This document shows positions 1,645 to 56,109 of a DNA stretch of 64,000 nucleotides, one piece after another; the first letter of the stretch is position 1; each line of letters starts with the position of its first letter. The notes under the pieces were generated by a model. That model was not told the DNA's origin. It did no database searches and saw only the letters and a list, made by a program, of their open reading frames with translations. Origin of the DNA: Chryseobacterium turcicum (GTDB lineage: Bacteria > Bacteroidota > Bacteroidia > Flavobacteriales > Weeksellaceae); the NCBI RefSeq assembly GCF_021010565.1, contig NZ_JAJNAY010000001.1, forward strand, positions 1,840,001 to 1,904,000. The letters are read 5' to 3'. The translations under genes were made by a program, and so were the position numbers.

Positions 1645-1676
1645 AAAGACCTTTCATTAAATTGAAAGGTCTTTTT
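1645..1676 (+). terminator. Rho-independent terminator of rny
   Basis: The arms AAAGACCTTTCA and TGAAAGGTCTTT form a near-perfect stem followed by a T run. The same hairpin sequence recurs at 2371-2402 after the second small peptide gene, which indicates that it was copied as part of a duplication. Confidence 0.9.
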
Positions 1677-1833
1677 TATGAAAATTTATTAAGATTAAAT
1701 TATTTTATGAATTCTTTTGTTTAAGTTAAGTTATTTGTAAATATTTCATAATATTTATTATTTTGTTGTCGTTTTATTGGTGAATTATATTTAAATTTGA
1801 GAATCAAACTATATTAATTGAAAAACAAATAAC

Positions 1834-2025
1834 ATGACAAACAACATTTTAAAAAACGCGAAAAAATTAAAACAAGCTGATCTTAAAAACATTGTCGGAG
1901 GAGTAAGCGGAAATCCTGATTTATCTTTTTGTGGATGCAGTTGCACAGGAGCTGTTACAGGTCCTTTATATTGTACAAAGTATTTTGCTTGCCCTCAAGT
2001 ATATACTTGTAAAGACGTATACTAA
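1834..2025 (+). CDS. Double-glycine leader, six-cysteine peptide (copy 1)
   Basis: A 63-residue secreted-peptide precursor. A basic, amphipathic leader of 23 residues ends in LKNIVGG, the double-glycine cleavage pattern recognised by peptidase-containing ABC exporters. The roughly 40-residue core carries six cysteines spaced C-x-C-x-C-x9-C-x5-C-x5-C, with aromatic residues and a PQVYTC motif near the end. The start is the ATG 35 bases after a -7-like TAAATTTG (1792-1799). Two close paralogues follow. No exporter, peptidase or modification enzyme is encoded nearby, so any maturation machinery would act in trans. It resembles the bacteriocin-like or natural-product-precursor GG families annotated in Bacteroidota. 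The function is unknown and antimicrobial activity is only a possibility. Confidence 0.85.
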   Translation: MTNNILKNAKKLKQADLKNIVGGVSGNPDLSFCGCSCTGAVTGPLYCTKYFACPQVYTCKDVY

Positions 2026-2144
2026 TTTAGATAGTAAAAAATAAAAGATCTACTTCAAAATTAAGGCAGATTTTTTATTGACTTTCTATTTATAAATTTT
2101 TTTAAATTTGAACATCAAACTATATTATTAAAAAAACAAATAAC

Positions 2145-2339
2145 ATGACAAACAACATTTTAAAAAACGCGAAAAAATTAAAGCAAGCTGATCTTAAAAA
2201 CATCGTCGGAGGAGTTAAAGGAGGAAATCCTGATTTATCTCTTTGTGGATGCGATTGCGCAGGTACCGTTACAGGTCCTGAATATTGTCCACAATATTTT
2301 GGCTGCCTACAGGTATACACTTGCAAAGACGTGTATTAA
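2145..2339 (+). CDS. Double-glycine leader, six-cysteine peptide (copy 2)
   Basis: A 64-residue paralogue of the gene 120 bp upstream. The leader is identical at the protein level, differing only at synonymous sites, and the six-cysteine spacing is the same. The core differs at scattered positions (KGG insertion after the GG site, CDCAG instead of CSCTG, PEYCPQYFGC instead of PLYCTKYFAC). An unchanged leader with a diversified core is typical of families sharing one exporter. The TAAATTTG at 2103-2110 and the AAACAAATAAC ribosome-binding region match copy 1. The gene is followed by the duplicated rny-type terminator. Confidence 0.85.
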   Translation: MTNNILKNAKKLKQADLKNIVGGVKGGNPDLSLCGCDCAGTVTGPEYCPQYFGCLQVYTCKDVY

Positions 2340-2370
2340 ATATTTAAAAATCATAAAAAAATACAGTAAA

Positions 2371-2402
2371 AAAGACCTTTCATTAAATTGAAAGGTCTTT
2401 TT
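2371..2402 (+). terminator. Terminator duplicated from rny
   Basis: The hairpin sequence is the same as at 1645-1676, including the loop, and is followed by a T run. It ends the second peptide transcript. Confidence 0.88.
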
Positions 2403-2529
2403 GTAAATTATTTTAATGCAAACTAGATTATGTATGTTAATCTGATAATATTTATTGTTTTATTATCGTTTATTGGTGAATTATGTTTAGATTTGATCAT
2501 CAAACTATATTAATTAAAAAACAAATAAC

Positions 2530-2721
2530 ATGACAAACAACATTTTAAAAAACGCAAAAAAATTAAAACAAGCTGATCTTAAAAACATCGTTGGAGGAAT
2601 TAAAGGAGGAATTCCTGATTTATCTCTTTGTGGATGTAGCTGCTCAGGATCTGTTATAGGTCCAAAATATTGTCCACAATATATTGCTTGCCCACAAGTG
2701 TATACCTGCAATGAAGTATAG
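2530..2721 (+). CDS. Double-glycine leader, six-cysteine peptide (copy 3)
   Basis: A 63-residue third member of the tandem family. The leader again ends LKNIVGG and the six cysteines keep the spacing C-x-C-x-C-x9-C-x5-C-x5-C. The core is closest to copy 2 (KGG after the cleavage site, YCPQY) but ends in NEV where the others end in KDVY. The upstream DNA (about 2430-2529) resembles that of copy 1, including the TTTATTGGTGAATTAT stretch and a -7-like TAGATTTG at 2488-2495. Each gene therefore appears to carry its own promoter and terminator rather than forming an operon. Confidence 0.85.
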   Translation: MTNNILKNAKKLKQADLKNIVGGIKGGIPDLSLCGCSCSGSVIGPKYCPQYIACPQVYTCNEV

Positions 2722-2745
2722 TAGATATAGATATTAAAATAAATG

Positions 2746-2776
2746 AATCCGTCTCACAACTGAGGCGGATTTTTTA
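2746..2776 (+). terminator. Terminator after peptide copy 3
   Basis: AATCCGTCTCA pairs with TGAGGCGGATT (one G-U pair) across a 4-base loop, followed by TTTTTATTT. Confidence 0.88.
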
Positions 2777-3797: not shown

Positions 3798-3869
3798 GCT
3801 GTTAATTAATAAATATTTTGCGAAATTTTAAGTAAATTGTTTGTAACCAATCAACTTTTACTTTTGTTT

Positions 3870-4260
3870 CAAACAACTTGCGGGAAGCAAAATGCAATTG
3901 ACGGAAGTTAAAAACAAGTGTTTTGTCTTAAAATTACTTCTACGGAAGGTTCAAACGAACTGCGGGAAGCAAAATGCAATTGACGGAAGTTAAAAACAAG
4001 TGTTTTGTCTTAAAATTACTTCTACGGAAGGTTCAAACGAACTGCGGGAAACAAAATGCAATTGACGGAAGTTAAAAACAAGTGTTTTGTCTTAAAATTA
4101 CTTCTACGGAAGGTTCAAACGAACTGCGGGAAACAAAATGCAATTGGCGGAAGTTAAAAACAAGTGTTTTGTCTTAAAATTACTTCTACGGAAGGTTCAA
4201 ACGAACTGCAGGAAACAAACTGCAATTGACAGAAGTTATAAAACATCTGTTTTGTAACTA
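3870..4260. repeat. 82-bp tandem repeat array (about 4.5 units)
   Basis: The motif TGCGGGAA/TGCAGGAA recurs at 3879, 3961, 4043, 4125 and 4207, an exact period of 82 bp. Four units are almost identical (G/A in GGAAGC/GGAAAC; GACGG/GGCGG) and the fifth is degenerate. Each unit holds nested dyad symmetry: GAAGT pairs with ACTTC around an inner AAAAC-AAGT-GTTTT. There is no open reading frame, and no variable spacers of the kind a CRISPR array would have. The array directly precedes a structured-RNA candidate. Confidence 0.92.
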
Positions 4261-55582: not shown

Positions 55583-55655
<73 letters not shown>

Positions 55656-55694
55656 CTAAGCACAGTGTTTTCGATAAACACTATAAAGATATAT

Positions 55695-55767
<73 letters not shown>

Positions 55768-55806
55768 CTAAGTACAACGTTTTCGGTAAACGTTTTAAAA
55801 ATATAC

Positions 55807-55879
<73 letters not shown>

Positions 55880-55918
55880 CTAAGCACAGTGTTTTCGATA
55901 AACACTATAAAGATATAT

Positions 55919-55991
<73 letters not shown>

Positions 55992-56030
55992 CTAAGTACA
56001 ACGTTTTCGGTAAACGTTTTAAAAATATAC

Positions 56031-56103
<73 letters not shown>

Positions 56104-56109
56104 CCAACA

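Follow-up and report, generated by a model that had tools for sequence, protein, structure and literature searches.

The 64,000-nucleotide (nt) stretch of the Chryseobacterium turcicum genome analyzed here (contig NZ_JAJNAY010000001.1, positions 1840001-1904000; hereafter the window) carries on its + strand three neighboring open reading frames (ORFs) that encode small cysteine-rich precursors of 63, 64, and 63 amino acids (aa), to which we refer as genes 1, 2, and 3. Gene 1 occupies 1834..2025 (leader 1834-1902, core 1903-2022, then the stop codon), gene 2 2145..2339 (leader 2145-2213, core 2214-2336, stop), and gene 3 2530..2721 (leader 2530-2598, core 2599-2718, stop). An earlier reading of this DNA from its letters alone (the original prediction) had described three adjacent genes whose products share the same 23-residue leader, with a GG end, and one cysteine spacing, and the ORF translations bear this out: residues 1-23 are MTNNILKNAKKLKQADLKNIVGG in all three precursors, with GG at the leader end, and each peptide has the pattern C-x-C-x-C-x9-C-x5-C-x5-C (C33, C35, C37, C47, C53, and C59 in copy 1). 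The GG end, together with conserved hydrophobic positions ahead of it, agrees with their description as GG-leader precursors. The window peptides matched no Pfam model, and their only matches in NCBIfam were below the cut-off of the respective model.

The array is flanked by rny (56-1624) on one side and by an opposite-strand gene for a 4HBT thioesterase on the other. Its three copies are tandem duplicates, upstream region included (139-nt direct repeat, 86-91% identity). On average, they are 100% identical in the leader and 69% identical in the core; the leaders are free of amino acid changes, and their proportion of silent differences (pS) is 0.15-0.23, compared with 0.35-0.42 in the cores (small numbers). 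The low silent change in the leaders may reflect conversion of the 5' half. Among the ten proteins neighboring the array that were scanned, no tailoring enzyme was recognized, as had been predicted (one protein, of 158 aa, had no family match), and neither was an immunity gene, a receptor gene, or a metal-binding or metal-transport gene; one neighbor is ArsC-like.

A putative promoter of the Bacteroidota type precedes gene 1 (1766..1799, + strand; TTG at 1766, TAAATTTG at 1792), and another precedes gene 2 (2078..2110, + strand; TTG at 2078, TAAATTTG at 2103). For the putative -7 element ahead of gene 3 (TAGATTTG, 2488..2495, + strand), no TTG lies within the 17-23 spacing range. In all three genes, the TAnnTTTG element begins 42 nt upstream of the start codon. 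TAnnTTTG at -65 to -28 was found in 112 of 139 upstream regions of homologs (5.8 in shuffles), and TTG-N17-23-TAnnTTTG in 84 of 139 (1.0 in shuffles); we take TTG/TAnnTTTG to be the Bacteroidota promoter consensus. A TTTGA-N3-TCAA dyad ahead of the window copies recurred in only 12 of the 139 regions (0.2 in shuffles), and we do not count it as a general feature. Terminator-like stems lie ahead of copy 1 and past copies 2 and 3. The first, a palindrome between rny and the array (1645..1676, no strand assigned; printed for the - strand as 1674-1645), belongs to repeat family D6, with an exact copy at 2371-2402. The second, a palindrome past gene 2 (2369..2402, no strand assigned; printed for the - strand), was also found as a repeat copy, and the stem past gene 3 (2745..2772, + strand) is a stem prediction.

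Distribution and conservation in Chryseobacterium

A protein search matched the peptide in 159 of 173 Chryseobacterium genomes at an expect value (E) of 1e-3 or better, with one to three copies each, and the three-gene observation is thus not a matter of chance. When a full-length profile was run against 296 genomes of the same family, 136 Chryseobacterium genomes were matched, and the only matches outside were two weak ones in other genera of the family (G279 and G286, E 2-3e-5). In a search of named genomes, the best 80 of 151 relatives gave 79 loci, 78 of them from Chryseobacterium and one from Flavobacterium profundi; the nearest named relative among these best 80 is C. balustinum DSM 16775 (L147), at 90% identity. 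The whole peptide had no match in a plasmid collection, and the core had none in a phage collection.

The genomic site is equally constant. In 39 of 40 mapped peptide-bearing genomes (33 from dedicated rny mapping and six by the coordinates of other searches), the peptide shares contig and strand with rny and lies 164 to 4,989 nt downstream of it; the fortieth, G088, has the two on separate contigs. Within 1.5-kb flanks, what we take to be an MFS-like gene directly precedes the peptide in 17 of 30 loci, and a presumed YeiH-like gene comes after it in 15 of 30 (window included in both counts). In thirteen peptide-less genomes, the 5 kb that follow rny gave no match on the same strand at E up to 1; for the fourteenth (G136, 73% complete), only ∼550 nt downstream of rny were available. 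On a tree of rny from 54 of the 173 genomes, from which G129 with its broken rny was excluded, presence of the peptide switches state eight times.

We also noted variation among the copies. Two subtypes recur among the 71 Chryseobacterium loci (of L147-L223) that span 8 kb or more, one with a C-terminal tail past the last cysteine and one ending there. A tailed copy is paired with a K-K/R-C-type copy ending at the cysteine in 12 of the 71 loci, and 50 have a single copy only. This pairing may hint at a two-peptide system. One copy, in G153 (L095), has a stop within its core and is a decayed gene.

Leader and core are both under purifying selection. Pooled from the 294 pairs of sequences whose pS was below 0.45, the ratio of nonsynonymous to synonymous change (dN/dS) was 0.16 for the core and 0.14 for the leader, one N-terminally extended peptide and the Flavobacterium peptide being excluded from this analysis. 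The residues that never vary in 138 genus sequences are, in the core, the six cysteines, S32, G40, V42, G44, and P45 and, in the leader, L12, L17, I20, G22, and G23 (numbering of window copy 2); genus-wide mean pairwise identity is 0.72 for the leader and 0.72 for the core (139 sequences). The exact cysteine spacing was present in 145 of 145 peptides (139 from the genus and six from another family), a count conditioned by the way in which the set of 140 peptides that supplied the 139 was picked, namely by GG and six cysteines at about this spacing. Conservation of the mature part is at least equal to that of the export tag. The original prediction had spoken of diversified cores, which holds between the three window copies but not genus-wide; its further suggestion of a fixed leader with a changing core, and of selection on the cores, is for the most part not borne out, given the dN/dS values, the invariant core residues, and the retention of the core behind another leader described below.

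These results bear on the reading that the original wording implies, a bacteriocin directed at kin and under diversifying selection. The GG leader, the cysteine-rich core, the tandem copies with differing cores, and an exporter such as bacteriocins use (see below) would all suit it. However, the core dN/dS, the nearly identical core throughout the genus, and the lack of a recognized adjacent immunity gene do not, and we regard this reading as decidedly unlikely. Near-constancy across the genus, the fixed site, and the absence of a recognized immunity gene beside it together argue against a fast-evolving kin-killing bacteriocin; an antagonist with a conserved target, or a signal, would fit better.

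Leaders, candidate exporter, and disulfide machinery

As predicted, no exporter lies near the array: the one C39 domain above cut-off in the whole genome (G000:C1:2850206-2850562) is outside the window, at a distance of ∼1 Mb. It is part of a 731-aa protein that combines C39, ABC membrane, and ATPase domains, and the gene is accompanied by genes for HlyD, a 507-aa protein with VKOR and Thioredoxin_4 domains (VKOR-Trx), and several leader-bearing cysteine peptides. The description of the array as an orphan locus consequently suits its neighborhood but not the genome, and the absence of any C39-type exporter from the genome, which the original prediction had named as counting against itself, is not what we found. 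Four of four exporter-cluster peptides tested pass the NCBIfam model NF047798 (leader_Chryseo), and, on direct reading, the window leader has the frame K-N-x-K-K-L-x4-L-K-x-I-x-G-G in common with their leaders. The four resemble the window peptides in their K-K-L...L-K-x-I-x-G leader frame and cysteine-rich cores, and differ from them in lying at the exporter locus, in having other cores, and in passing NF047798. Exporter, HlyD, and VKOR-Trx occur together in eight of nine genus exporter loci read, the ninth (G004) having been chosen for reading because it is without VKOR-Trx. Over the 173 genomes, a C39 domain above cut-off was found in 169, the exporter (E 1e-100) in 169, and VKOR-Trx (E 1e-20) in 162.

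A core-only profile run against 395 genomes of the order detected 39 Chryseobacterium genomes and five genomes of two genera in another family, one of them (G377) being Flavobacterium profundi, which belongs to Flavobacteriaceae. The five genomes hold six leaders of the type LN-x-x-G-x-x-x-L-x-K-x-x-Q-K-x-x-x-G-G ahead of the same core, apart from one that starts LS..G and one that ends in GK. The peptides at the C39-exporter loci of three of these genomes (G363, G384, and G495) mostly carry the same leader type, e.g. MKKSILNLGKALNKAEQKNINGG. When each leader was compared with leaders from exporter loci (21 from the genus, eight of which end in GA, GS, or GE, and 34 from the other family), 100 of 101 genus leaders by global alignment and 101 of 101 by ungapped comparison were closer to the genus set, and the other-family leaders were closer to their own pooled set in six of six cases by either method. 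The comparison had at first omitted three leaders from another C39 locus of G377, its second (L265), six leaders of the other family with a GS ending, and two atypical leaders of L279, plus apparent noise; restoring the eleven leaders left the counts unchanged. Between the two clades, identity is 0.36 for the leader and 0.61 for the core. As read from these comparisons, it is the core that is conserved, and the leader goes with the host. The leader may have been swapped, or may have drifted along with its exporter, and any transfer may have run in either direction. Two of the other-family exporter loci (L267 in G384 and L272 in G495) also encode diverse leader-bearing cysteine peptides in long series, and the leaders of many of these resemble MKKSILNLGKALNKAEQKNINGG.

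The peptide also co-occurs with the machinery encoded at the exporter locus. A close VKOR-Trx homolog (E at most 1e-190) is present in 155 of 159 peptide-bearing genomes and in one of the 14 without the peptide, so that 13 of the latter lack it (Fisher p 2.6e-15, ignoring descent), and a close exporter homolog in 158 of 159 compared with five of 14; these "close" limits were chosen after the values had been seen. At E 1e-20, the counts for VKOR-Trx are 157 of 159 peptide-bearing and five of 14 peptide-less genomes. Four genomes (G030, G086, G089, and G107) have the exporter at E 0 and no peptide. This co-occurrence also bears on the idea of a secreted cysteine peptide that neither signals nor kills, e.g. 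one that acts on the cell surface as a metal or redox binder. In favor of such a binder are its strictly conserved sequence, its presence in nearly all genomes of the genus, and its six invariant cysteines, which include two C-x-C steps; the co-occurrence with close VKOR-Trx, however, suggests disulfides, and no metal-binding or metal-transport gene was recognized among the ten scanned neighbors, one of which is the ArsC-like gene. We consider a binder unlikely.

We infer export, disulfide formation, and an activity as antagonist or signal. It is probable, judging from sequence and gene content, that the peptide is a secreted, disulfide-bonded six-cysteine mini-protein exported in trans. Each peptide gene would have a promoter of its own. 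The distant exporter would, by means of its C39 domain, recognize the KN-x-KKL-x4-LK-x-I-x-GG leader and cleave after GG, and the ∼40-residue core would pass through the ABC/HlyD channel; three disulfides would be made on the periplasmic side by the VKOR-thioredoxin fusion, and the folded peptide would act outside the cell. A more far-reaching version, which we put forward tentatively and with more doubt than confidence, is that this is a near core-genome, secreted three-disulfide mini-protein, almost unchanged genus-wide, whose leader would serve as an interchangeable address label: on passage between families, the leader would be exchanged for the type of the recipient and the core retained.

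Several observations weigh against export in trans by this machinery or against the leader following its host. The window peptides were not matched by NF047798 at E up to 10. No homologs of the exporter, HlyD, or VKOR-Trx (E 1e-15) were found in 154 rny-site or peptide loci, window included, and the pairing of peptide and exporter thus draws on the single C39 domain, the leader resemblance, and the co-occurrence. At the loose limit of E 1e-100, the exporter discriminates poorly, being present in 158 of 159 peptide-bearing genomes and also in 11 of the 14 peptide-less ones. After correction for descent, only 4-5 supported independent pairs are left: close VKOR-Trx agrees in 3.7 of 5 and disagrees in 0 (sign test p 0.125), and the close exporter agrees in 2.8 of 5. 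The small number of independent losses therefore limits the test. Individual genomes also fit poorly: G069 has two intact peptide genes and neither exporter (E 1e-100) nor VKOR-Trx (E 1e-20), G004 lacks VKOR-Trx despite having the peptide and the exporter, and in G016 and G129 the peptide is accompanied only by a weaker VKOR-Trx match. In the other family, the sole GG peptide found beside the exporter of G377 has a Chryseobacterium-like leader, no GG peptide was found beside that of G483, and one leader has the GK ending mentioned above.

Chemistry and possible function

Six cysteines in a leader-bearing peptide could also be joined by thioethers, as in a sactipeptide related to ruminococcin C (RumC) or in a ribosomally synthesized and post-translationally modified peptide (RiPP) of the TIGR04149 kind, modified by a radical S-adenosylmethionine (rSAM) enzyme. 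The core shares the short motif C-x-C-S-G ... G-P-x-Y-C-x-x-Y with RumC and has a weak likeness to PDB 6t33 (E 4.1 and 9.2), NF035950 (RumC_sactiRiPP) was matched by one of 44 members at E 1.2, and the leader region scores 18.1-18.5 bits with the GG-leader domain model TIGR04149 (GG_sam_targ_CFB), whose curated cut-off is 25. None of these scores is significant, and we rejected membership in either family. RumC, according to PMC6779426, is encoded by five 63-aa precursor genes in one operon and has four cysteines, with thioethers made by operon-encoded SPASM radical SAM enzymes, whereas the window peptides have six cysteines and no equivalent enzyme was recognized. Of 13 rSAM proteins found in the genome, 11 score above the cut-off of named non-maturase models (MiaB, MtaB, RimO, HemW, PA0069, BioB, ThiH, RlmN, rSAM_link_UDG, HemN, and lipoyl synthase), another resembles QueE but scores below cut-off, and the last (L236) is unmatched at 1e-30; none was recognized as a peptide maturase, of the TIGR04149 type or otherwise, in a survey that did not search for the SPASM domain itself, MNIO, or other tailoring enzymes outside the C39 and rSAM families. 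On this survey, thioethers made by a known maturase appear unlikely and disulfides made by VKOR-Trx are favored. A thioether-bridged product is, in our judgment, highly improbable.

AlphaFold2 gave a mean predicted local distance difference test (pLDDT) of 67.8 for the precursor and 77.2 for the core, with predicted template modeling (pTM) scores of 0.37 and 0.44. A search of the core model against the PDB returned nothing at E up to 10, and a second fold search with it returned two viral hits at E 9.3; we therefore claim no fold. A hit to Scytovirin (whole-sequence E 0.018) was rejected, as it consists of repeated short cysteine matches, the best stretch having an i-Evalue of 22.

The nearest studied systems, likened by description and not by sequence comparison, are the bacteroidetocins, class IIf bacteriocins of Bacteroidota. 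As described in PMC6671954, these have a GG leader, with an exporter bearing a double-glycine peptidase and a thiol oxidoreductase in one cluster, and their disulfides are inferred by the authors. There, transmembrane protein, peptide, oxidoreductase, and exporter lie together, whereas the window peptides lie far from the exporter; bacteroidetocins have four cysteines and the window peptides six; and antibacterial activity was demonstrated for bacteroidetocins, whereas for the window peptides it is a proposal. The family is not named in the titles or abstract openings that our literature search found, which is no proof of its being unpublished.

With regard to function, we regard it as plausible, at somewhat less than even confidence, that the peptide hits a conserved target and antagonizes non-kin bacteria, the producing genus itself being insensitive. 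A nontoxic signal, sensed within the genus as a cue of density or kinship, is the main competitor. Presence in 159 of 173 genomes, the fixed site with its one to three copies, purifying selection, and the lack of a recognized immunity gene among the ten neighbors are all compatible with a signal. However, no receptor gene was recognized among the same neighbors, and the occurrence in a few genomes of another family fits a kin signal poorly. Known peptide pheromones, moreover, usually diverge between species, unlike the almost constant core seen here. On balance, a signal seems rather doubtful to us, and antagonism of non-kin through a conserved target is the reading that we prefer.

Elsewhere in the window, an 82-bp unit is repeated in tandem between the ArsC-like gene and gcvT (3868-4255, 4.7 copies, 96% matches), a Flavo-1 RNA (Rfam RF01705; 4320-4411, + strand, 62.7 bits) follows directly past this array, and five tRNA-Met (CAT) genes stand in tandem with a period of 112 bp (55583-56106, + strand).

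Bacteriocin-like peptides are expected to have a variable core and an adjacent exporter. In contrast, the core described here is near-constant over the genus and is encoded at a housekeeping site far from its presumed exporter, and its leader differs between families in step with the leaders of the exporter loci. If the leader is truly an address label, the constant core would mark a public molecule with one conserved target and not a strain-specific weapon. In culturable bacteria, both the matching of leader to exporter and what an orphan cysteine peptide does can thereby be tested directly.
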